A DNA stretch of 64,000 nucleotides from Thermoplasmatota archaeon (GTDB taxonomy: Archaea > Thermoplasmatota > Penumbrarchaeia > JASLWR01): contig JASLWR010000007.1 of assembly GCA_030740765.1 (NCBI GenBank), forward strand, positions 20,638-84,637. Direction: 5' to 3'. The position numbers and the translations under genes were made by a program. A model generated the notes under the pieces. That model made no database searches and was not told where the DNA came from. It worked only from the letters and a program-made list of their open reading frames with translations. Every line of letters begins with the position of its first letter. Positions within the stretch are counted from its first letter, which is position 1. Positions 18,165-43,127 of the stretch are shown piece by piece.

Positions 18165-18374
18165 TCCCTTCCGATTTTAGGACGAAGAGCAGTCTATTGC
18201 TCCCTTTGATATCTTTATAGAAATGCCCATATACAAAGAAATAAATAAAAAATAGATAATGGGTGTATATGAGAAGGGATGCGGACCTCCCAGACCAAGG
18301 GGAGAAAATTAATATTAATAGATCTCATCCGGACCAACAAAGGATCCTATCGGATTCAAGGAGGGATAATCGTT

Positions 18375-21300
18375 ATGGGAGTTGGAACCAATCGGACCAA
18401 TGAGAGCAGTACAGGGATAACTGTAGCTGAGGAACTCCTTTCGCTAGGTGAAGAGCTATACCGGGAACTAAAGGATCTCTCCATTGAAGCTCCTGAGGTG
18501 GACGGTCTGTTAAAAGATGCCAAAATCGCCATGGAAAAGGGAAATATTGCCCTCGCCACGGCCAAGGCAACCGAAGCGTGTACCCTGGGAGAACACAGAA
18601 AAAGCGAAGGGATAATTCAAATAGTTGGGAGCAAGGTGGCCGAAATAAAGGATTTCATAAGATCGGTTTCCTTCGAAACTGATGTGGCCGGAGTACGCGA
18701 ATATCTCGCAAGAGGCGAGGATGAGTTAATATTGGGTCATTACGACGAAGCGAATAAATTTCTCGATATTGGTGTGAATAGTATCCAAAAGGTACGGCGG
18801 CAGATAGATAAGAAAAAGATATTGGGTTTGATCACGAGAGCGGAGACTGCCAGCCACAAGAAATTTATTAACGATCCTGATGGCAGGATCCAGGGAATGC
18901 TTGAGAAAAGCAAGGAATTGCTGGAAAATGGCGAACCGGAAAAAGCTTCCGAAATGGCCTATGAAGTCCTGAACCGATGCTCCGAGGAAAGTAAATACGG
19001 TGAGATGCAATCTCTTCTTGAGGAACTCGGTTCCATCGAAAGTGAGATTGAAGAACTTGAAAAATTAGGTGCCGAAGTTAAAGCGGTCAATATAAGGTTA
19101 TTGAACGGTAAGCAAGCTCTGGATAAAGCCGATATAGAGAGTACCAGGGACATTATTTCGAGTTGCTATATCATTATTTCCCGACTGAAGGGCAGGGTGA
19201 AGATAAAGGCAGCCCAGGAGAGGCTCGCCAGGGCAAAATACGTTGTTGATCAAATGGGAGAGACCGCCCAGGTATCCACGGAACCGTTGGAAAAGCTCGG
19301 GCGGGCTAAGAATCTCTTTCATGATAAGAAATATGATGAGTCAATAGAATGTTCCGATGATGCCATCAATACGGCCATGGAAGTGAAGCATAAATTCTAT
19401 AAGGGTAAGATTTTTTCAAAGATCGAAGAGTATAACCTGAAGATAGAACAACTTGAGAAATCCGGTTTGTCACTTGATGAGTTGAAATCAAAGCTATCTG
19501 GTGTAGCGCAGAATGCCGCCATGAAAAAGTACCTCGAATGCGAGAATATGCTGGAGAATATCTCTCTCGAACTTCTCAAGGAAAAAAATAACCTGAGAAT
19601 CAAGAAGGGAAGTAGTGACATCTCATCTATTCAGGTCGATTTACGAAAATTGAAGATACTCGGGCTTCCCATGGAAGAATTAACGGATATGCTCACTGAA
19701 GCGCAGAAGGCTTTCAAAGAATACGATTACCGCCGTATAGAGGAGCTTGCTGAAAAGGTAAAGAACAATAGCGAAAAAATGATACGGGATCACAAGATAA
19801 GCGAGTCGATAAAGAAATTTGAAGAGACCGAAAAACGTCTAGAGGAAATTGCTAGGCAGGATGTAGATGTTTCGAAAGCATGGATGTCTTTCAATAAGGG
19901 GAGAAGTATTTTACAAAACGGCGATTACACGAAGGCACTAGAATCTTTAAGGGCAGCGGAAGAGCAGATGAGCGAAACCTGGGGCGCCCATATGCTGAGG
20001 AAGATAGATGAGATCAAGGGAGATACCGATTCCATCATTTCCGAATTGAGGGAAAGAGGATTGAAGGTAATTAAAGCCGAGAAACTTTTGCAGTTGGCCG
20101 AGCTGAAGGTCCGGGGAAAGGATATGGAAGCGGGGTATCAGATAGTAAAGGACGCCCTCGATTCAGCAAAAAGCACGAAGTCGGAGCTCTTTCGTAGGAT
20201 GTACCTCGACACACTACTCGATTATCATACCCATATAAAGGCACTCCAACGGGGAGGGGTAGACACAAGCTCCATGGAGGAGCGATTGAACGAAGCCAAG
20301 ACTAAGGTCGAAAATGAGGATTTTGGGGACTTGACCTCTTTAATGAATGGGATATTGGAATCCATTAATTCGAAAAAACAGGAATATCTAGGGGGCCAGT
20401 CTTCTCAAAAATTAAAAGACATGCAAGATAGGTATAAAGAGCTTGAAAAGGAAGGGATCGAGCTTGATGAAGTGAGTGGGCTTATGGAGGATGCTGCTAG
20501 TGCCCACGAGAAAGGGAATTATGAAACGGCAAAGACCCTGCTTTCGGAAGCCCGGCAGAAGGCTGAGAACAATTATATACTTACGAAGAGTTCAGCATTT
20601 AAGGATACCTATGATAGTATCCTAAAGGACATTGGGAAGTGGAAAGAAGCTTCCATCGATACTGCTGAACTGGAAAGGATAATTGAAGATGCTAGAAATA
20701 AAATTGAATTGAAAGAGATGGAGATGGCCTCGAAGGATCTTGATCAGGCCATGGAGATATCTTCCCGACTGCGGGAATATTATTACCAGGAAAGATCTTT
20801 GGATATCATATCTGAAGCAAAGATCACCTTTCGCGATCTGATAGAGGTTGGCCAGGATATTTCCTCGCTTCGAGGACAACTGGACCGTGTAAAGGAATAT
20901 TTCAGTGATCAGCAATACAAAGAGGCATATGAGCTCGGTGAAGAATTGACCAGCACGATAAAGGCAAGAAGGAGACTTGGTACACTGCAGAAGAAAAACC
21001 AATTGCTTGTGAAACGCCACGCTGAACTGGAGAATGAAGGCCTGGAACTTGATGAAGAGAAGGATGTTCTATCGCAGGTGGCAGTAATGCTGGACGCGGC
21101 CGAGTTTGATACTGCCAAGGAAACCATAGAAAAAATCGATCGAGTGATGGAAGAAAAATTCCATTCCTACCGGGACGATTTCTACCGAAAAGAGATCGAT
21201 GAATTCAAGTCTCTACTTGACAAGTTCTCCAAAAAGGATGTGGATGTTTCTTCCCTGTACTCCATCATTGACAATTGTACCCGTCACCTTGAGATGAAGG

Positions 21301-24300
21301 AATATAATACCACAGCGGAACTGTTGAAAAAGGGATGGATGGAAGCAGAATCCGCCAGAGATTTCTTTGTAACCAATCAATTATTGACCCAATTATATGA
21401 ACTTGAGGACGCCCTTTTCGAACTTGCTAACAGGGGTGCTGACGTAACTGGTATGGACAGTAAGTTATTGAAGATAAAGAGAATGATATCGAAGGGATCC
21501 TTCTCCGAAGCCAGGTCCGCGATATTGAAGAGACAGAAGGACATTCGTGAGATCGAAATCGATTTCCACAGGGGCAAGGTCCGTATCTTTCTGGATGAAC
21601 TGGAAACTCAAAGGCAGAGTCTGAGCGAAGAAGGTGTGGACACCATGGAGATGGAAACCCTGCTGGTGGCTGCTGAATCCAACGTTTCAAAGGGAATATT
21701 CGATGAGGCTTACAAGGTAATCGATAAGGTGAAGAAGATCAGGGATTCACTAGAGCTCGATCATAAGCTTGGGAATTCCGAGTCATCTCTGGATACTGTC
21801 AAAGAGGAATTGGACCGCCTTTCGACCAAGGGTGTGGACACCGATCTCATGGGCGACCTCTACCGCGATGCAGGGGAATTATTGAAGAAAAACAATTTCA
21901 GCGAAGTTAATGCATATTGTAAGCTCGCATTAAAGGAAGGTGCGAAAAGGGAGAGGGAGTTTGACCTGGAAATAGCTTTGGACCGCTTAAGCCGAAGCAG
22001 AGGTGTGGTTGAATTTATAGAAAAGGACTCCGGGGGTGGTTTCGACCTTTCAGATTATTTCGATCGATTGGACGAACTAAACGATGAGGTTAGGGAAGAA
22101 GTTTCCACAGAGATATTGGCCCGTATCGTCCAGTTCGAGGATGATGTAAGGGGTCGAAGTCGGGAATACATGAAACAGAAAGCCATCTCCACAAAGAGGC
22201 TACTTGAAGATATCATATCCGAAATTGAAGAAATTGGCGGCGCAAGCTCTCCTCTCATGGTATACATCCAGAAAGGCGAAAAATTACTTGACAAGGAACA
22301 CTTCGGGCCAAGTATAGAATGGTTTCAAAAGGGTATCGAGAAAGCGGCCTTCGAGAAAAGGCGCCAGGAAATATGCTTATCAATTGACAATATCAGAACC
22401 CTTGAGGAAGATGCCCGCAAAATCGGAGTGGACGTATCCGAAGGCTCCTCATTGTTCAATAAAGGGAAGAGAGAATTCAAAAGAGAGGATTATGATAAAT
22501 CAGTCATTCTGCTGGAAAGAGCAAAGAAGGCCATCACCTCCGCCAAATTCAATTACCTGAAGACGAAGATCAACGGCGTGATCATAACCAACAAGCTCAT
22601 CTATGATAATCTTACGGAGATGGGGGTATCTAAGATAGAAATGAAGGAGGAAAAATCCTTCATGGATATGAGCCAACTTCTCTTGGACAAGGGGGTTTTG
22701 GATGAAGCAGAGGTGTATGTCAATAAGGGGAAGGAAGCTCTGGTTGACCTGAAGAACCGACATAATCTGAGAATAGTATCAGAGGAAATGGAAAAAACCT
22801 CCGATATCTGCAGCGGCATTGAAGAACAGGGCGTGGAGATATCATCATCTCTTCAATTACTGGGTGAGATCCGGGAGACCTTAGGTGATAGAAAGGAACT
22901 CCCCGATGACGAGCAACGATCCATACTGGATGATATCCGGCATGCTCTTCATAGCGCCAGGGAGCAGGAGACCACGTTCAAGCTCCATCTTCTCGACAGC
23001 AACCTAGAACGTAATGCGGCCCTTTTAAATAAATACAGTATGGAAGGTGTCGACATGACCGAACCATTGGCAATCTTGGCCGAGGCCAGAGAGATGTACG
23101 ATGGAGGGAACACGGAGAAAGGATTGGCCAAAGGGATTGAGTGTATAGCACTGGCCAAGGAGAAACGAGCTCTGTTCTTCAAGGATAGTGCCAATGGACT
23201 TCTCTATACTGCAGAATTATTGATGAAAGATATCAGAAAGCTCCCTTTCGACATCAGTCATCTTGAATCCATGATGAAGACTGCAAGGGATAATTACGCG
23301 GAAGAAAAACACAGAAAGTGCGCGCATCAGTTGAAACCATTTATTAGTGCTTGCGACGAGATGAGAATAATGGGTGAACTCCAGGCCAAGATCGACGCTT
23401 TGCGGGAATCGGTCATCGATCTACCTATCGAAAAGGAACATTTCGAAGAAGAGTTGAAGGAGATCGAGGAACTAATAGTCAATCGAAAGTTCGACGCGGC
23501 GAAGAACGCATACGAGGATATTTTTAAGGTTTTCAAGTTAAAACGAGGCGAGTATGAAAAGAAACTGGCAGAAGAGGAGTACGAGCGGATAAAACTACAG
23601 GTAGACGAACTTACTGCAGATGGTATCGACCAGAGTGAACCAATAAATATGATAGAGCAGGGGCGAAAATTTATCAAGAACGGGGAATTGAATAAAGGAC
23701 ACGATATTATAATGGAAGCGGCTCAACTGGCAAAGAAGATCCGCAAGGAGAAAACAGCGGAAATATCCGAGGCGATCCTATCTCTTGAAGATGCCCTGAT
23801 CCTTGCAGGAGAAGGACGAGCGTATGAAGCAGAGCTCATGAAAAAGCTCAGAAAGTTACGTGACGATTCAGCCATTCCCATAACCGAGGAACTGACTCAA
23901 ACGATACTATCTCTAAGCAAGATCTTCAAAATGATGGAAGATTATGAGATAAAAACACTATTCCTCGGCAATGTCCAGAGTGTGAGGAAGCTATTGAGCG
24001 AGGTTTCGGAATATCTGCCTGAAGAAATATCTCGGGAATTGAATGTGAAACTGGACGGAATGCCGAGTCTCGGTCCAGGGGTTCCAAGATCCGTTGAGGA
24101 TGAGGCTTTCGGGGAGTTAGAAAAGATAAGGAATCTAATAATCGCTTCAACCGAAAAGGAGATCCATAAAAGCCTCGCAGATCCGGTAGCCCGGATCGAA
24201 CAGCTGGGTGGTGTAGACAAGCTGCTGGCCCAAGGTATCGTGGGCGTGGATATTTATAACTCTTATCTAAACAAGATAAATGATACATCCGGGGAGGAAC

Positions 24301-25721
24301 TTGTTGATAAACTAAGATTCGTTCGTCTCCTTAGTGAACAGGTCGAGAAAATAGAACTACGGGTGCAAAGAAAGAACCTTCTGGACCATTACAATGATCT
24401 TTCTCAAAGGGTAAACGCCATGAAATCGAATCAGTTCACTCCGTCCAGCGCATTGCACTGGCTGGGAGAGGGAAAAGCGGCTCTCGATAGTGACGAATTC
24501 AAGGAAGCGGAAAAATGCTTCGTACGGGCTGAGGACGGGGCGAACATGGCCCTCAAGAGGCGGGAGCAGGATATGGCGAGCCGTTCCATTACGTCGGCCA
24601 TAGAGAAGATGAGGGGCATGGGGCTAAAATTCTCAGAGGCGAAAGAGGTACAGGTGATTCTAATAAAAGCCCAGGAGGCGGAGAGGCAGAGGCGTTATTC
24701 GGAGATACAGGGGCTATGCAAAGAGGCTATCGGTCTGGCCACCAAAGAAATAGATCGAAAACGGAAAGAGAAGTTTGAAAAAGAGACGTCCAGGATAAAG
24801 AATATCATAAAATCAAAGGATCGGGATATGGATGGAAGCATCCATTTGAATAGATTGGTCATGGCCGAAAACCTGTTTAATTCCGGAATGTACGATTTAG
24901 CAATGGATGTAGCAAAGAGGGCGGAAAAAGACGTTCGTAACAGTTACTGGTTGACCATGACCGAGAAATATCTCATCAGTCACCAAGAGGCCGAGAAAGC
25001 AATGGAGAACGCAGAAACAATTGAAGTAGACATTTCCCAGGGCGCTCTTCTGATGGAAGAGAGCAGGAAGTTGTTCCTCAAGGAAGCCATGGCGTTGGCC
25101 TATGAGAATATTAGCGAAGCGACATCAGTAATAAACGAGCTTATTCATCGGAACATGGTACGGACAAAGCAGGATGAGGCTACTTCGCTGAGAAAGGAAC
25201 TGGACATATTAGAGGAAAAGGGTGCCGAGGTTCTGAACGCCCGAAGAGACCTGGAAAAGATGCGGGTTTTACTGAAACAGGGGGAATTGGATAAAGCTGA
25301 AGAGGTGAAAAACATCATCGTCAATGCCCTGGGGGGTCTTGAAAAAGATGTTTTCAGAGAAGAACTGAAAAGGATACTTGATAACTGCCATGCGATAATG
25401 GAGGAAGTTGCTAGGATGAAGGGGGATACATCCGAGTTTCAGAAGAATATCAAAAGAGCCACGGATTTCCTTACGGGTGGTCTCCTGGAAAGTGCTAACG
25501 AGCTATCCCAGGCTTGTTTGAAGGAACTCATGGGGGAAAGGAACAGTCTTCTCGAAGAAAGGGCAAAGACGGTGCTCTATGCCACTGGAGAGATCGTGAA
25601 TGGCACTGAGAATGAGCGGGCCCTGGATTATTTCAAGAAAGCGAGAACGGCATTTGAACTGGAACGTTACAAGGAAGCCCTGAGAATGGCCCAGGAAAGC
25701 ATCAAACACATCGAGGGATAA
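18375..25721 (+). CDS. Giant (~2448 aa) helical-repeat / coiled-coil protein
   Basis: ORF 18279-25721. Best start is ATG 18375 (MGVGTNRTNESS...), preceded by an AAGGAGGG-like RBS. Over 20 degenerate repeats of type GVDVSxxExxLxxAxxxLxxGxYxxAxxxxxxA. Confidence 0.85.
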   Translation: MGVGTNRTNESSTGITVAEELLSLGEELYRELKDLSIEAPEVDGLLKDAKIAMEKGNIALATAKATEACTLGEHRKSEGIIQIVGSKVAEIKDFIRSVSFETDVAGVREYLARGEDELILGHYDEANKFLDIGVNSIQKVRRQIDKKKILGLITRAETASHKKFINDPDGRIQGMLEKSKELLENGEPEKASEMAYEVLNRCSEESKYGEMQSLLEELGSIESEIEELEKLGAEVKAVNIRLLNGKQALDKADIESTRDIISSCYIIISRLKGRVKIKAAQERLARAKYVVDQMGETAQVSTEPLEKLGRAKNLFHDKKYDESIECSDDAINTAMEVKHKFYKGKIFSKIEEYNLKIEQLEKSGLSLDELKSKLSGVAQNAAMKKYLECENMLENISLELLKEKNNLRIKKGSSDISSIQVDLRKLKILGLPMEELTDMLTEAQKAFKEYDYRRIEELAEKVKNNSEKMIRDHKISESIKKFEETEKRLEEIARQDVDVSKAWMSFNKGRSILQNGDYTKALESLRAAEEQMSETWGAHMLRKIDEIKGDTDSIISELRERGLKVIKAEKLLQLAELKVRGKDMEAGYQIVKDALDSAKSTKSELFRRMYLDTLLDYHTHIKALQRGGVDTSSMEERLNEAKTKVENEDFGDLTSLMNGILESINSKKQEYLGGQSSQKLKDMQDRYKELEKEGIELDEVSGLMEDAASAHEKGNYETAKTLLSEARQKAENNYILTKSSAFKDTYDSILKDIGKWKEASIDTAELERIIEDARNKIELKEMEMASKDLDQAMEISSRLREYYYQERSLDIISEAKITFRDLIEVGQDISSLRGQLDRVKEYFSDQQYKEAYELGEELTSTIKARRRLGTLQKKNQLLVKRHAELENEGLELDEEKDVLSQVAVMLDAAEFDTAKETIEKIDRVMEEKFHSYRDDFYRKEIDEFKSLLDKFSKKDVDVSSLYSIIDNCTRHLEMKEYNTTAELLKKGWMEAESARDFFVTNQLLTQLYELEDALFELANRGADVTGMDSKLLKIKRMISKGSFSEARSAILKRQKDIREIEIDFHRGKVRIFLDELETQRQSLSEEGVDTMEMETLLVAAESNVSKGIFDEAYKVIDKVKKIRDSLELDHKLGNSESSLDTVKEELDRLSTKGVDTDLMGDLYRDAGELLKKNNFSEVNAYCKLALKEGAKREREFDLEIALDRLSRSRGVVEFIEKDSGGGFDLSDYFDRLDELNDEVREEVSTEILARIVQFEDDVRGRSREYMKQKAISTKRLLEDIISEIEEIGGASSPLMVYIQKGEKLLDKEHFGPSIEWFQKGIEKAAFEKRRQEICLSIDNIRTLEEDARKIGVDVSEGSSLFNKGKREFKREDYDKSVILLERAKKAITSAKFNYLKTKINGVIITNKLIYDNLTEMGVSKIEMKEEKSFMDMSQLLLDKGVLDEAEVYVNKGKEALVDLKNRHNLRIVSEEMEKTSDICSGIEEQGVEISSSLQLLGEIRETLGDRKELPDDEQRSILDDIRHALHSAREQETTFKLHLLDSNLERNAALLNKYSMEGVDMTEPLAILAEAREMYDGGNTEKGLAKGIECIALAKEKRALFFKDSANGLLYTAELLMKDIRKLPFDISHLESMMKTARDNYAEEKHRKCAHQLKPFISACDEMRIMGELQAKIDALRESVIDLPIEKEHFEEELKEIEELIVNRKFDAAKNAYEDIFKVFKLKRGEYEKKLAEEEYERIKLQVDELTADGIDQSEPINMIEQGRKFIKNGELNKGHDIIMEAAQLAKKIRKEKTAEISEAILSLEDALILAGEGRAYEAELMKKLRKLRDDSAIPITEELTQTILSLSKIFKMMEDYEIKTLFLGNVQSVRKLLSEVSEYLPEEISRELNVKLDGMPSLGPGVPRSVEDEAFGELEKIRNLIIASTEKEIHKSLADPVARIEQLGGVDKLLAQGIVGVDIYNSYLNKINDTSGEELVDKLRFVRLLSEQVEKIELRVQRKNLLDHYNDLSQRVNAMKSNQFTPSSALHWLGEGKAALDSDEFKEAEKCFVRAEDGANMALKRREQDMASRSITSAIEKMRGMGLKFSEAKEVQVILIKAQEAERQRRYSEIQGLCKEAIGLATKEIDRKRKEKFEKETSRIKNIIKSKDRDMDGSIHLNRLVMAENLFNSGMYDLAMDVAKRAEKDVRNSYWLTMTEKYLISHQEAEKAMENAETIEVDISQGALLMEESRKLFLKEAMALAYENISEATSVINELIHRNMVRTKQDEATSLRKELDILEEKGAEVLNARRDLEKMRVLLKQGELDKAEEVKNIIVNALGGLEKDVFREELKRILDNCHAIMEEVARMKGDTSEFQKNIKRATDFLTGGLLESANELSQACLKELMGERNSLLEERAKTVLYATGEIVNGTENERALDYFKKARTAFELERYKEALRMAQESIKHIEG

Positions 25722-25809: not shown

Positions 25810-27105
25810 ATGATAAGTAGACCTAGAGGAACGAGGGATTTTACACCGGAGGAAATGGACCGGCGGGATCATCTTCTAGCCGTACTGAAAGGAACCGTTG
25901 AAAGTTTCGGTTATGGTGAGATCGGCCTGCCCGCCTTCGAGCATCTGGACCTCTTTACCCTGCGTTCAGGCCCGGGAATAATCGGGCAGATGTATAACTT
26001 TACCGACAAGAACGGGCGAAATTTGGCGCTTCGACCTGAACTGACGGCCTCCACCATGAGATTCTATGTCAATAATCTTCAGAACCGGCCAAAACCTCAA
26101 AAACTCTACTATTTCGGGAACTGCTTCAGGTATGAAAGACCTCAGAAGGGGAGGTTCCGCGAGTTCTGGCAGTTCGGCGTTGAATTCATCGGTAGTTCGA
26201 CGTCCCTTGCGCTGGCCGAACTGATCGCTATGGCGGTGAAGCTGATGGATAGATCCGGTCTGAGAGATTTTCAGCTCAATATCGGTTACCTGGATATATT
26301 GAGGACGGTTATGGCGAAGATAGGACTCCCCACAAGTGCACTTGCATCGGCATTGGTACTTATCGACAAGAAGAACATCGAAGGGCTCGAAGACCTATTG
26401 TATGAGAACGGGACTTCGGCAAAGCTGGTATCCGACATCCTCAGCTTGTTGGATGTCACCGGTGGGATTGAGCTGCTGGAGGAAATGGAAGGGATGGAAA
26501 GGGATTACCCTGAGCTTGCTGTGCCGCTGGAGCGTTTCCGGAAGATCTGTCACTGGCTTGTGATCATGGGTATAGATAAGTTCAACATTGACCTTGGAGT
26601 GGTCAGGGGCCTGGATTATTACACCGGAATGGTCTTCGAGATCGAGGCTCCTATGTTGGGTGCCGAGAAACAGATATGCGGCGGTGGAGAGTACTCGCTT
26701 GTACCTTTGTTCGGAGGGAGGGAGGTGGCCACAAGCGGCTTTGCTCTGGGATTCGACAGGCTGCTTTTGGCGCTTGAGAACCAGGGATATGTATTTCGGG
26801 CTAAAAGACTGGACCTATTCCTGGTCCCGGTCTCCCCCGACGATATACAATATACCGTGGGGGTCGCCAACAGCTTGAGAACAGCCGGCTTGAGAGTTGA
26901 CCTTGAACTGAGGGGCAGAAATGTGAAGAAAGCAATGAAATACGGCAATTCCTTAGGTGCCGCTTATGTGGGAATAATTGGCGAGAATGAAAGGAATAGG
27001 TCCCTCGTAGCGGTGAAGGACATGAATTCAGGAGAACAGAAGAGCGTGCCTGAAGCCGATCTCGTTAGCTATCTCTGGGAAGGCCGTAACTCATTGCAAA
27101 CTTAG
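25810..27105 (+). CDS. hisS: Histidyl-tRNA synthetase
   Basis: RPRGTRDFTPEEMDRRD, LRPELTASTMRFY, FRYERPQKGRFREFWQFGVEFIG, GVVRGLDYYTGMVFE. Confidence 0.95.
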   Translation: MISRPRGTRDFTPEEMDRRDHLLAVLKGTVESFGYGEIGLPAFEHLDLFTLRSGPGIIGQMYNFTDKNGRNLALRPELTASTMRFYVNNLQNRPKPQKLYYFGNCFRYERPQKGRFREFWQFGVEFIGSSTSLALAELIAMAVKLMDRSGLRDFQLNIGYLDILRTVMAKIGLPTSALASALVLIDKKNIEGLEDLLYENGTSAKLVSDILSLLDVTGGIELLEEMEGMERDYPELAVPLERFRKICHWLVIMGIDKFNIDLGVVRGLDYYTGMVFEIEAPMLGAEKQICGGGEYSLVPLFGGREVATSGFALGFDRLLLALENQGYVFRAKRLDLFLVPVSPDDIQYTVGVANSLRTAGLRVDLELRGRNVKKAMKYGNSLGAAYVGIIGENERNRSLVAVKDMNSGEQKSVPEADLVSYLWEGRNSLQT

Positions 27106-37163: not shown

Positions 37164-40100
37164 TTATATATCAATTCTGAATTCGTCCGTTTCTCCGGAT
37201 TTCCCATCTTCAACCTTTTGGGTTAGTGCCAACGTATCTTTCTGCATAATATCCCCCTGAGGCGCTAGGCTCCTATCTGCAGTGGGCACTAATTCCGGCG
37301 ATAGCGAATCAACTCTGAAAAGGTTCTTAACCGACATGCAATCTGCCCCGCACTCGGGGCAATTCCCGAGCCTTACCGCACATGCCTCGTGATACTGGAC
37401 ACCGCATTTGCAGTTCAATACCGGGAGGCTGGGCTTTATAACACCCAGGCATATTTTGCATAGTATTGCCTCAGTCGTACCGGTGATCATCGCTCCATCA
37501 CCGGTGGGTACATCCTCCTTATGAGAATCAGGAGGCGAAAGAAAAATTGTACCCTGGCATTTGGGGCATTCCCCTATTCGTTCGGCACAGGACGGATGAA
37601 ATATCTTACCGCAGTTGCATGTTATTATATCCAGGCCCGGCTTAACAACTCCCATGCATATTCCACACATTATCGCCTCGGTTGCAGTGGATCGCCTGGG
37701 GCCTGTCGATTTTTCCTCCTTTTCCTCCGGCACAACGTCCGCAACGAGAGATACCCCGCATTTGGGACAAGTCTCCACCCTTTCACCGCAGGACCGGTGC
37801 AACTTGCTACCACAGGAGCAGGTCATTATTTCAAGTCCGGGTTTCACAACACCCATGCAAATAGCGCACATTATCGCCTCGGTGGCAGTTGAGATGGCTG
37901 GAAGACCTGCAGGTGATTCCAAAGGAGGCTCCTCTGGGGGTTCTTCAGGCTCTTCTTCGGGTATACGGTCAGCCATGATGGATTCCAGCATTGTATCCAA
38001 ACCTTCGAGACCGTCTTCGCTGCCGTCCCATACCTTCAATCTATACTTGTACTTCTCCCATAATCGTATGAGGAGAAATCTTATCTTTTCCCGAAGTTCA
38101 GGTGGAGCAGTGCCATGGAAAACGACAGCCAGATACATACCCACACCACGTTCGAGGAAAATGGTCATCTTACCGTATTGAAGGGTCTTGAGCGCACCGG
38201 AATCCTCTTTAAACGAATCCTTTATGAAATCCGTTATTGCGGTCAGCATCCCGCTCATGATATCCTCATCCATATTCTCCCGCAGCTGTGTTTCGAAGGA
38301 TACCGATTTGATTAGACGGCCATCAACATACACCAAAAAGAGATCGCTTATGCCAAATCCCGTATCGACGCCTATTATCTGGGGACCATGGGCTCCTTGT
38401 TGAGGGGCCGGCGGTGACGAAGTTTTGGTCATGGATACCTGATTCTCAGCACTCCTTTGGTGGTTCGTTGCAGTATCGGAGGCCGTGGGTACCGGCACGG
38501 TCGTAGTGGTGGCTCCCGTTGAGGACATCATGGTTTGAGATGGCTGTATATCAGAAGGAATGGCGGATTGTGTCGGGTGTGAAGAGGATTCCGGCTTAGA
38601 CGATAAGGGAGGAATCCCAACCCCTGCATGAGACCGTGTTTCACTTCTGCGCGCGTAGGAGTGTTTGACGCTTGGTGCGAATTTCGCCGTATTATCGAAG
38701 CTGCTTGGTGCTTGACCTTTTATCGGCTCCATTTGGATATTATTGAGCACTGGTTCAACTTGTTTAGCATTTGCTGTTCCACCCGGAATCGCCCTCTTTT
38801 CTTTCGATCGTTTCTGTTTTTTCATCAATACGATTATTATGATTATGACTCCGACAATAAGTGCCAGGGAACCTAGAATAATATATATAAAAATACTATC
38901 TGAAGTTTCTTTGACAGTGTTAGCATTGCCTTGGTCCGTATCGTCATCTGAATCCTGCGGTTTTGGAAGAATGTCCACCCGAAATGTAATTTTATTTACG
39001 CCCCCAGCGTGATGGGCTTCTATGCTAAGATTGTATTCCCCAGGATTGAGAGAGGAAGTATTGTAAATACTGACCTGAACCCTCTTGCTTTCTCCGGGGG
39101 AAAGTACGACACTATTGGTAATATCCGCGAATCCCTTTATGATACCTTCTATGAACAAATTTGCCTTGACGGGAAGATTGCCGTTATTTACAAGAGTAAT
39201 ATTGAAATCCGATCCGGCACCATAAGGAACCTTCACCAACGAAAAGTTCGATTCGATGGAGACTTTATATACCGGTTGAAAACCCGTGTCGATGGTAAAA
39301 GAATTTATACCGCTTGAACACCGCCCCTCGTTTTTACCCGATATGGGAATGACCGTCCAGTGGTAAATCAATCCAACCGAAAGGTCTGTCAATAGATGGG
39401 ATGTTTCAGTTATAGTGGCGATCTCGATCATATTATCTTTTGATGGACCCAGGAGGATGCGGTACCGAAGGGTATCTCGGGCCGACTCGGTACTTTCCCA
39501 AGTCAGTGTCACCTCCGTTTTATTATATACCATGCCGCTCAAAGGAGAAAGAAGATTTACTTTTGGGAACTCTAATTCCTCGTCCACGGTAAAACTATAG
39601 ATACCGTTGCTGCACTCTCCAGATAGCTTCCCGTCGTGAGGCAGAACGTACCAGTAATAGGTTAAACCGGATCCCAGTCCTCTTATTGTTATACCTCTTG
39701 GAATATTGGTCCTGAAAATACCGGGATCCTTGTTCTGATCCATGTAAAGATCGTAACGTAACTCCTCCAGGCCATTGTCCGGATCATATGCTTCGAATGA
39801 AAATGTAACATCCACATCTCCCGATACTGCCTCGTCTGCGGGGGATATTAAACTGACAAGTGGGGCATCATTCACCGCAATAACCGTAACGGGTATGGAC
39901 ATATTTTGCGCGGACCTGGAAGGGGTTGAAATGTTACGAATATATACTTCGAGGCTTGTTTCGCCAAAAAAATCATTACTCGGAATTATTGTTATGCGAA
40001 GATCCTTCTCAAGGCGAATCGAAATGAGATTCGTGGACGGGCTCACGAACGGGTCGATAGGATTCCCGTCGCCATCGAAAATGTATTCTATTAGTGACCA

Positions 40101-43100
40101 ATCCGTCGTATAATTTGCGTCCTCCTGAAGCACGATGGGCGGGGGTGTCGAGATCCACACAGGCGGATCATCTTCATTAATCACTCTTATAAAAAATTGA
40201 TTAGACCGGGTTTCCAATCCGTAGATGTTTTTAGAAATTACTGACAGGGATATATTCCCAGAGTAGTTCTCGGAAAGTTCTGCGATGTGGAGTTCATCTT
40301 CGATAAGTTCAAGAATCAGGTTCGTGTTGTCCGAAATATTCTCCAAAGTGTACTGAGATGGCTCGATTTTATGATACCTGTCATAAAAATGTTTTGACAA
40401 ATTCAATAATCGGCTTTCTGTGGTTTCCTCGGGGATAACAATGTCATTTATATCTACCAGATATCGAGGAGATTCCGCTAGTGACCAGTTCAAGGCCCAA
40501 TCAAAGAGGACTGGAGACAGTTGTCGGTTTGATATAAAATTTGCTTTCAGGTAAATTATCCCATGTTCGCGGGCGTTTATGGATCCCGCAAGATCCAATT
40601 CAGCGGTGTCTAGATCGGTTATTTCACTCAACAATATCTCTTCGGTGACCGCATCGTGTATGGATATGTTCAAGAAGGTGTTCTCCGGGACCGAGCGATG
40701 GATTCGCAAGGTAGACCATGTAAAGGTGGAGGGTAAATATACGAGATTTGAAAGTAGGCTGACATTCGAATATTCATTTGGTGGCATAGCCCTTCCACCA
40801 GAAATTGAAATCCCCACAAGATAATCATTCATAATCTCCTCTTGAGTACGGGCAACATTGCTTAAACGGACCTCGTCGATCTCACCACCAAAATAGTACC
40901 TCGACTCAGATCCGGTCATTCTCCCGATGGAAAAATGTGACTGGCTCACCGTGGTGGGTCTGTCTCGAACATCCTTTTTTGCACGCATCACACCGTCCAC
41001 CCAAAGGCTCATTTCCACGCCGGCATATCTCGCAGCAACGTGATGCCATGTCCCGATTAAAAACGGGGATTGCCATTCCACCGTATCACCATTCGCAGCG
41101 CTGTCAAGGAAATGAATATTGAATATATACCTAATATAATTTGAGGAATTGACACTTGTCTGGAGATTATAGGATCCAATTTGGACGTCTCTTCCCTTGC
41201 TTGCTATTGTTCCTATATTGCGCCAATCCTCCTCAAGGTAAGGAGCCATACGCCTTGTCCAAGCGCCTATTGTGAAATTACCCACATTCCGCAAACTAGG
41301 CTTGTTGAGTATTTCCACGTAGTTGGTACTCCCGTTGAATTTCAGTCCTCCTGCGAACCTTCCAATAACTCGATTCCCGGGATTCATATTCTTCATCGTA
41401 CCGTTATTCCCCAGACCGCTTTCATCGATTATCGCATTTCCGTTCACCTCGTTGAAATGCCACAGCCCCACGGTGTTCATATCAGTACTACCTTCCACGC
41501 CCCCGCTGCACATACCCTTACCGGTAAAGCTATCCCTCCATGTTAATGAATCCACCCACTGTACTCCCCACGATTCCATGAAAGGTGCTACCCGTGGAGT
41601 GCTGAAAAAAAACGCTCTCACGCTTATGGAACCTACATTCATCTCGTTCAAATGACTAAGGTTGATATTGGAATCCGTGAGATTCTCGAATTTATTAATT
41701 ACTGAACCTGTATCGGTGTCATAAAGGGTTAATTTAACGTTTGTGCCAATTGGTTCCGACTTAATCACGGAAAGAACATCCCAGTACATATTGTCGGGAA
41801 GTATGACTGGAATCGATGTGATAGATGCTAAAAGCCCTTGTACCTCCACGCCGTAATTTATTGAAGTAGATACTGAATATTTTCGAATGAACCAGTAATC
41901 GAACTGCCACTCGCAGCCTCCGTTACCTGGGTGATTTCCCCATTTAAGATGGGTTGGCGGCAGCCAGGAAAAGTTACCCCCGGCACTGTCCACCTGTTGT
42001 AGGAAATAATATCGCGAGACCGCAGGCGACGATACGTTAGCTAACCCGTTTATCTCATCAGCGGCAAGGAGGCTTCCGTTTGTGAGATCCCTCCATTCAT
42101 ACGCAACTCTTTCGGAGCGATAATATATCTTCAAAGATAGATCGTGGTCTGGGTTCGGCTTTGGGACGTACTTGAACGGCGTTACAGATGAGTTCGGCCC
42201 ATTATTGATACTCAGACGTATTGGTATCAATGAATCGTTTGCGCCGTCACTCTCTTTCATGCTCCACTGCACCAGACAGTGGTCCACCTCGTCCCAAAGA
42301 CTGCTGCGATTGGAGGACCAGCCCATGACGGCCCAATCCCATGCTCCTTTGTTCCAGCTCTTAATACTGAATTGCGTGTTAAGGATCCGATCATCGGATT
42401 GAGAAGTCGTGTTCTCCCAGTATGTGTGATGATTGTTGTCTATGTCGGGAGTCCCGTAGATCCAGTTTCCCGTGTTGTCAGTGACCCAGTGATCGAAATA
42501 AGAAAAGACCTTAGTACCGTTGGAAGCGGGATTGGCGTGAGGATTCCCGTAGATCAGCCATATCTGAGAAATTCCGAGAGACATACTTGTTATGTTCACC
42601 CATATCTTGCTAACGCCGCTGGAGTTCCACTCCTCGATCCAGTAATTCAAATTATTTTCGTCACTATCCTTGAAACGGATATCGTCCCCCCGAGGATTCG
42701 CCTTCGAATAATCGAAATTGGCCGGCTCCAGTGTTAGGTTAAGTGGGTAATTACTGAAAGGCCCACCATTGCTGGTGATCGTTAACGGTTTTTTAAACAT
42801 CCATAAATCATTATTCACTTTACCGCCGCTTACATTCACATTTTGCTGTTGAGAGATCCCGCTCGTATCATCGAAATCGTCGAACCACGAGCCACCCATT
42901 TCGTCATTTTCAATCTGAACAAGGGATCTTGAAGTTTTGTCGGTAGAACGGGTATCGTTCCCTTGATCAAGAGTGACCGTCTCCATGGTCTCGAACGGAA
43001 CGAGGGATAAGGACGGTATTGTCGAGATGTCGGATTGTCGGATATTTCCTTTGGAATAGAGGTGGAACCCTCCCATTACCTGCAAGTAAAGTAGAAAGAT

Positions 43101-43127
43101 AATCCATACCGATAATATCCTTTTCAT
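37164..43127 (-). CDS. Giant membrane protein: DUF2341, LamG-like, FN3-like ectodomain, TM, longin/roadblock-like segment, three RING-like fingers
   Basis: 1987 aa; FKKPLTITSNGGPFSNYPLNLTL..IWLIYGNPHA (DUF2341), GLWHFNEVNGNAIIDESGLGNNGTMKN..FNGSTNYVEI (LamG), FN3-like repeats, TM IFIYIILGSLALIVGVIIIIIVLM, LFLVYVDGRLIKSVSFE..DIMSGMLTAITDFIKDSF, three C4HC3 fingers. Confidence 0.8.
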   Translation of the reverse strand: MKRILSVWIIFLLYLQVMGGFHLYSKGNIRQSDISTIPSLSLVPFETMETVTLDQGNDTRSTDKTSRSLVQIENDEMGGSWFDDFDDTSGISQQQNVNVSGGKVNNDLWMFKKPLTITSNGGPFSNYPLNLTLEPANFDYSKANPRGDDIRFKDSDENNLNYWIEEWNSSGVSKIWVNITSMSLGISQIWLIYGNPHANPASNGTKVFSYFDHWVTDNTGNWIYGTPDIDNNHHTYWENTTSQSDDRILNTQFSIKSWNKGAWDWAVMGWSSNRSSLWDEVDHCLVQWSMKESDGANDSLIPIRLSINNGPNSSVTPFKYVPKPNPDHDLSLKIYYRSERVAYEWRDLTNGSLLAADEINGLANVSSPAVSRYYFLQQVDSAGGNFSWLPPTHLKWGNHPGNGGCEWQFDYWFIRKYSVSTSINYGVEVQGLLASITSIPVILPDNMYWDVLSVIKSEPIGTNVKLTLYDTDTGSVINKFENLTDSNINLSHLNEMNVGSISVRAFFFSTPRVAPFMESWGVQWVDSLTWRDSFTGKGMCSGGVEGSTDMNTVGLWHFNEVNGNAIIDESGLGNNGTMKNMNPGNRVIGRFAGGLKFNGSTNYVEILNKPSLRNVGNFTIGAWTRRMAPYLEEDWRNIGTIASKGRDVQIGSYNLQTSVNSSNYIRYIFNIHFLDSAANGDTVEWQSPFLIGTWHHVAARYAGVEMSLWVDGVMRAKKDVRDRPTTVSQSHFSIGRMTGSESRYYFGGEIDEVRLSNVARTQEEIMNDYLVGISISGGRAMPPNEYSNVSLLSNLVYLPSTFTWSTLRIHRSVPENTFLNISIHDAVTEEILLSEITDLDTAELDLAGSINAREHGIIYLKANFISNRQLSPVLFDWALNWSLAESPRYLVDINDIVIPEETTESRLLNLSKHFYDRYHKIEPSQYTLENISDNTNLILELIEDELHIAELSENYSGNISLSVISKNIYGLETRSNQFFIRVINEDDPPVWISTPPPIVLQEDANYTTDWSLIEYIFDGDGNPIDPFVSPSTNLISIRLEKDLRITIIPSNDFFGETSLEVYIRNISTPSRSAQNMSIPVTVIAVNDAPLVSLISPADEAVSGDVDVTFSFEAYDPDNGLEELRYDLYMDQNKDPGIFRTNIPRGITIRGLGSGLTYYWYVLPHDGKLSGECSNGIYSFTVDEELEFPKVNLLSPLSGMVYNKTEVTLTWESTESARDTLRYRILLGPSKDNMIEIATITETSHLLTDLSVGLIYHWTVIPISGKNEGRCSSGINSFTIDTGFQPVYKVSIESNFSLVKVPYGAGSDFNITLVNNGNLPVKANLFIEGIIKGFADITNSVVLSPGESKRVQVSIYNTSSLNPGEYNLSIEAHHAGGVNKITFRVDILPKPQDSDDDTDQGNANTVKETSDSIFIYIILGSLALIVGVIIIIIVLMKKQKRSKEKRAIPGGTANAKQVEPVLNNIQMEPIKGQAPSSFDNTAKFAPSVKHSYARRSETRSHAGVGIPPLSSKPESSSHPTQSAIPSDIQPSQTMMSSTGATTTTVPVPTASDTATNHQRSAENQVSMTKTSSPPAPQQGAHGPQIIGVDTGFGISDLFLVYVDGRLIKSVSFETQLRENMDEDIMSGMLTAITDFIKDSFKEDSGALKTLQYGKMTIFLERGVGMYLAVVFHGTAPPELREKIRFLLIRLWEKYKYRLKVWDGSEDGLEGLDTMLESIMADRIPEEEPEEPPEEPPLESPAGLPAISTATEAIMCAICMGVVKPGLEIMTCSCGSKLHRSCGERVETCPKCGVSLVADVVPEEKEEKSTGPRRSTATEAIMCGICMGVVKPGLDIITCNCGKIFHPSCAERIGECPKCQGTIFLSPPDSHKEDVPTGDGAMITGTTEAILCKICLGVIKPSLPVLNCKCGVQYHEACAVRLGNCPECGADCMSVKNLFRVDSLSPELVPTADRSLAPQGDIMQKDTLALTQKVEDGKSGETDEFRIDI

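Follow-up and report, generated by a model that had tools for sequence, protein, structure and literature searches.

What kind of protein is encoded by a gene for 2448 residues in a Thermoplasmatota archaeon, and would its apparent repeats give it a defined shape and role? To our knowledge, giant cytoplasmic scaffolds are hardly known in archaea. The gene, whose product is referred to as P0001, lies in a window of 64,000 nucleotides (the whole stretch of DNA analysed) from a draft genome of 3.59 Mb that is 94% complete.

The gene and its surroundings

The coordinates, strand and length of the reading frame in the original prediction are correct, and the immediate features are as follows.

18375 to 25721, plus strand: coding sequence of P0001, a giant repeat protein of 2448 residues with about 37 units of 66 residues
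18360 to 18365, plus strand: ribosome-binding site GGAGGG, from the sequence, 9 nt before the ATG at 18375
25810 to 27105, plus strand: histidyl-tRNA synthetase, 88 nt downstream of P0001 and on its strand, for which no link in function is proposed

The GC content at the three codon positions of the P0001 gene (0.53, 0.31 and 0.52) is typical of coding DNA. A second in-frame ATG at 18279 would lengthen the reading frame, though a start there is unlikely because GGAGGG precedes the ATG at 18375. The upstream neighbour is a lactate-permease-like transporter, and neither this gene nor the histidyl-tRNA synthetase provides a functional hint. No KaiC, FtsZ or ubiquitin-system gene adjoins P0001.

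P0001 is rich in Glu and Lys. The protein contains no transmembrane segment (the maximum hydropathy over 19 residues is 1.0) and no recognised secretion or export signal, and searches of Pfam, NCBIfam and PDB sequences gave no known domain above cut-off, in agreement with the original prediction, which had recognised no transmembrane, enzyme or secretion signal. Cys pair motifs, Cys clusters and zinc fingers are absent from the whole protein, and it has no RING, zinc or longin-like part. The best match to the whole of P0001 shares 22% identity, so that there is no close orthologue, and a scan of genome contigs with the whole protein as query recovered no relative.

A repeat with a period of 66 residues

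The internal repeat of P0001 and its period of 66 residues are real. When the protein is aligned with itself, 142 windows reach a score of 45 or more and the two best score 76 and 71, whereas 10 shuffles of the sequence give no more than 15 such windows and nothing above 54. With a hidden Markov model (HMM) of the unit, 24 copies are detected in P0001 (915 bits); six shuffles in which the hydrophobic/polar pattern was retained yield 0-4 copies and no more than about 8 bits. When iterated on giants of other genomes, the unit HMM finds 16 copies (187 bits) in P0001, a count that is not fully independent because the seed was taken from the first half of P0001. A unit model trained on the first half and tested on the second half detects only two units and scores 29 bits, whereas no shuffle exceeds 16; this is weak support, as the repeat is more degenerate in the second half.

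The spacing of the units is strict. Of the 19 successive unit distances in P0001, 15 deviate from a multiple of 66 by no more than 2 residues, and the phase coherence of the units is R=0.98. The detected units span 35.97 periods of 66, and therefore about 37 units fill the 2448 residues. Two stretches mark the extremes of regularity.

20037 to 22007, plus strand: ten tandem units of 66, 66, 66, 66, 65, 64, 66, 66, 66 and 66 residues (residues 555-1211, from the alignment)
23763 to 25202, plus strand: the most degenerate stretch (residues 1797-2276), with one detected unit, at residue 2151

Even this single unit keeps the register, as it lies 527 residues, or 8 x 65.9, from the unit at 1624. 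The original prediction of more than 20 units is borne out by internal homology far above that of the shuffles; the spacing of 70-110 residues it had read by eye is replaced by a period that is shorter and more regular.

The same spacing is seen outside P0001. In 14 related giants, a model of the 33-residue core, with the consensus LLEEAKELLEEGDYEEAEEL, is spaced by exactly 66 residues in 122 of 174 neighbouring pairs. The commonest longer exceptions, 70 and 74 residues, approximate steps of one helical turn, as if a packed helix could change in length by whole turns. With its GVDVS-capped hairpin unit and strict period, P0001 belongs to the Thermoplasmatota family of giants with repeats of 62-66 residues.

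Predicted structure of the unit

Two overlapping fragments of P0001 were modelled with AlphaFold2, a check that the original prediction had proposed.

20019 to 22016, plus strand: model 1, residues 549-1214, ten consecutive units, 8-row alignment, pLDDT 88.1, pTM 0.37
20907 to 21827, plus strand: model 2, residues 845-1151, 11 rows, pLDDT 92.7, pTM 0.63

The pTM values are modest (0.37 and 0.63), and the reading of both models rests on the predicted helix boundaries rather than on coordinates. A matching helical unit is predicted in both fragments, in which a five-residue GVDVS cap loop is followed by a helix of 15 residues, a turn of three residues and a helix of 43 residues that runs up to the next cap. 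In the numbering of the fragment, the helices of model 2 are at 2-43, 49-63, 67-109, 115-129, 133-175, 183-196, 199-241, 247-262 and 265-306. The recurrent GVDVS cap noticed originally is thus placed in the loop that caps the 15-residue helix. The position-wise hydrophobicity of 122 units fits this predicted unit, with hydrophobic positions in steps of three and four along both helices. An alignment of 39 rows of shifted P0001 windows was poor and was discarded.

The predicted 15/43 helical unit can be held with good confidence. As each 15-residue helix is placed between two 43-residue helices, the units would form three-helix bundles chained by shared helices, as in the spectrin topology, and on these models P0001 is predicted with moderate confidence to be a rod. 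Helix-helix covariation showed no excess over shuffled controls on the diagonals relevant to neighbouring long helices, and Foldseek searches of both models against the PDB returned nothing below an E-value of 0.1.

Relatives in the host genome and the class

P0001 has numerous paralogues in its own genome. Two of the proteins discussed below are located as follows.

Contig C92 of the host genome, L044:9323-20000 plus L045:2-11656: 7277-residue repeat protein with a C-terminal zinc ribbon
37164 to 43127, minus strand: 1987-residue surface protein with DUF2341 and Laminin_G_3, about 11 kb from P0001

The 7277-residue relative has 52 detected units, and its length of 110.3 periods corresponds to about 110 units. 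Repeat proteins of 3840 and 1329 residues on contig C86 form one apparent operon, as do those of 1709, 644 and 1480 residues on contig C71, and contigs C75, C65, C125 and C103 carry repeat proteins of about 900-1300 residues. Some of the repeat proteins of the host end in a zinc ribbon, at least one single-TM surface protein (L088:4694-9556) has repeat units in its cytoplasmic tail, and a protein of 346 residues combines three repeat units with a RING-like finger. The genome also encodes two E2 genes, one of them beside a JAB gene. The 1987-residue surface protein has an N-terminal signal-like stretch, one strong TM segment and a cytoplasmic tail. Its residues 1591-1718 share 37% identity with a domain of the 2720-residue giant of another family (f3) and appear longin/roadblock-like by eye, while residues 1754-1926 hold three RING-like fingers similar to the ends of the relatives' giants.

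In one group of genomes of the class (f2), each genome encodes one giant of about 1760 residues, and these giants are 36-95% identical to one another. The gene order is a single-domain KaiC ATPase, a variable gene and then the giant, with the KaiC proteins 72-84% identical in most pairs. The f3 family has the same order, with KaiC, a proline-rich gene and the giant of 2720 residues. Across these operons (L051-L058, L059), conservation is far higher in KaiC than in the gene that follows it. The f2 and f3 giants share a conserved C-terminal module of 270 residues with the motif QFLFVFR. P0001 was considered as an orthologue of these giants and rejected, as it lacks this module and has no KaiC gene nearby; it is therefore a paralogue-like member of the family. 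The host genome does encode a KaiC gene of the f2/f3 type, which does not adjoin a giant. Ras/Rab-like small GTPases are encoded near repeat proteins at L047:2478-4255 and L059:16193-16750, and one of them adjoins a V4R-DUF835 gene.

Relatives across the phylum

Unit models trained partly on P0001 matched 25 of 147 genomes, with reading frames called mechanically throughout the genomes compared. Other families have a repeat length of 62 or 64 residues, which accounts for 70 of 76 spacings and, in a second set, for 86 of 101. Profile-profile comparison aligns these units with those of P0001 (97.3% probability, E 2e-11), which supports homology between the units of P0001 and those of the giants with the shorter period. 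The survey of relatives proposed in the original prediction thus yields both paralogues in the host and a family across Thermoplasmatota.

Many of the giants with a period of 62 or 64 (about 1450-3200 residues) have a CARDB-like domain and a RING-like finger at the C-terminus, both named by resemblance and both under the Pfam cut-offs. This module occurs in 96 of 392 genomes, though many of the matches are limited to the finger, and short proteins are among them. The gene contexts of the RING-ended giants include two recurrent arrangements.

L130:6789-19069 and L131:4402-17204: ubiquitin-type operon of two f9 genomes with a RING-ended repeat protein of 3155/3183 residues
L127:3094-8948, L128:5627-12975, L184:4322-11664 and L185:4167-11532: f26 loci with FtsZ, a RING-ended repeat protein of about 1600 residues and a TGT/PUA gene

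In the two f9 genomes, an E1-like ThiF gene is followed by the giant with its RING-like end, a ubiquitin-like protein, an E2 (match E 6e-13) and a JAB/JAMM gene. The ubiquitin-like protein ends in GGG or GGA and matches polyubiquitin chains in the PDB (E 4e-7), while scoring under the Pfam ubiquitin cut-off. In two f27 genomes an E2 gene directly follows the giant, and in the one with long enough sequence a JAB-like gene, recognised by eye, follows too. An E2-like gene adjoins a giant in one further genome, and a KaiC-like gene does so in another. In the Candidatus Caldiarchaeum operon for archaeal ubiquitylation, a small RING protein serves as E3 (PMC5654768). Similarly, some relatives of P0001 have a RING-like finger and are encoded alongside ubiquitin-like, E1-like, E2 and JAMM genes; in their case, however, the RING ends a repeat protein of 2780-3183 residues, and P0001 itself has no RING.

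These KaiC, FtsZ and ubiquitin contexts all come from relatives, not from the P0001 locus. One reading would make P0001 part of an archaeal ubiquitin-like pathway in which, as a paralogue of the giant RING proteins that itself lacks the RING, it holds substrates or partners. Its repeat is homologous to that of the f9 giant, and the host has its two E2 genes, the 346-residue RING-like repeat protein and the surface protein with three fingers about 11 kb away. However, no pathway gene adjoins P0001, the absence of any zinc finger or Cys pair motif places it outside the RING-ended group, and a dozen other repeat proteins of the host are unlinked to the pathway. Such a role is unlikely.

The original prediction had also considered P0001 possibly cytoskeletal, and P0001 could be a filament protein of the cytoskeleton or membrane skeleton, working together with either FtsZ or the cytoplasmic tails of surface proteins. 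The tail units of the single-TM surface protein favour this, and the only cytoskeletal link is FtsZ adjoining related giants in four other genomes: in the four f26 genomes, of which two are single-contig, FtsZ lies on one side of the giant and the TGT/PUA-domain gene on the other. Given that FtsZ does not adjoin P0001 and that the neighbours of the giants vary among lineages, a filament role appears distinctly unlikely.

Likeness to known repeat families

The TPR is a 34-residue repeat of two short helices of about 14 residues each. The original suggestion of a TPR-like or spectrin-like repeat holds in both of its parts, the hairpin being TPR-like by profile and the chaining spectrin-like by inference. 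The unit profile matches TPR2A of Hop among the PDB TPRs (E 2e-6), and the likeness extends to the short helix, the G-D-Y turn, the start of the second helix and the small residues at the helix crossing. These matches, together with weak Pfam TPR matches under cut-off, might suggest an ordinary long superhelix of divergent TPRs serving as a chaperone or adaptor. In contrast to a TPR, the family unit is 66 (or 62/64) residues long rather than 34, with one TPR-like hairpin per unit, and its predicted helices are of 15 and about 43 residues. P0001 also falls below every Pfam TPR cut-off, with a best score of 23.6 bits against 30.1, and an ordinary TPR superhelix is quite improbable.

Spectrin repeats are about 106 residues long and consist of three helices, with a continuous helix joining neighbouring bundles. 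P0001 would resemble spectrin as a giant cytoplasmic rod of tandem helical bundles with continuous shared helices. It differs in its unit of 66 residues, in a middle helix of only 15 residues and in being archaeal. No Pfam spectrin model matches P0001 at E<=1, nor did the Foldseek searches return a spectrin match. An SMC/Rad50-like or simple coiled-coil protein, as its high Glu/Lys content and long helices might suggest, can be set aside as extremely improbable, since conserved caps break the helices every 66 residues in a register that contradicts it, P0001 has no Pfam or PDB relative, and the sequence searches find neither the ATPase head nor the hinge of such proteins, the match that the original prediction had named as refuting.

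A survey of huge archaeal proteins found at most seven of more than 5000 residues per proteome, mostly Laminin_G_3 proteins (PMC11573180). The P0001 family shares giant size in archaea with these proteins, and differs in being helical and without export signals, with a member of 7277 residues in the host genome. No description of a giant family with repeats of 62-66 residues was found in the open-access literature.

A probable rod-like scaffold in the cytoplasm

On the data, P0001 is best read as an elongated helical scaffold of the cytoplasm, and probably as a rod-like one. The original prediction of a cytoplasmic elongated scaffold is upheld, at the level of prediction, by the all-helical models, the lack of a signal or TM segment, and the strict repeat with long shared helices. 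In each unit, the GVDVS-type cap would start the 15-residue helix, and a G-D/N-Y/F corner would turn this helix into the 43-residue helix. The first part of the long helix may pair with its own short helix in the manner of a TPR hairpin, while its far end would reach the following unit and pack on the short helix there, giving neighbours a continuous helix in common, in the manner of spectrin. The expected rise is 3-4 nm per unit, which would make the rod about 110-150 nm long. Many similar but non-identical docking sites would be displayed along such a rod, by which P0001 may space or tether partners, for example signalling or modification factors. The KaiC, FtsZ and ubiquitin-system genes found beside other giants of the family are in line with such a role. 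How the helices of P0001 pack, how long the rod is, its part as a scaffold in the cytoplasm and its partners are inferred, and any specific pathway can be assigned only with low confidence.

With regard to the wider family, it is tentatively proposed that P0001 belongs to a hitherto undescribed, ancient family of giant rods built of stretched TPR hairpins, in which RING-ended members would act as E3-like scaffolds of ubiquitin operons and as partners of FtsZ, and P0001 would represent a RING-less branch. If so, individual giant proteins of Thermoplasmatota would unite a spectrin-like scaffold with signalling of the ubiquitin type. The strictly periodic rod of 66-residue units, in proteins of up to 7277 residues, has a geometry matched by no Pfam model or solved structure in these searches. 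The family supplies genes for probing the organisation of the archaeal cytoplasm, KaiC signalling, FtsZ division and ubiquitin-like conjugation. Furthermore, the relatives' operon of E1, giant RING protein, ubiquitin-like protein, E2 and JAMM provides a candidate giant archaeal E3 that is open to in vitro testing. As a separate observation, 52 of the 246 Thermoplasmatota genomes searched encode E2-like genes (PF00179, above the Pfam cut-off), against 0 of 14 control genomes.
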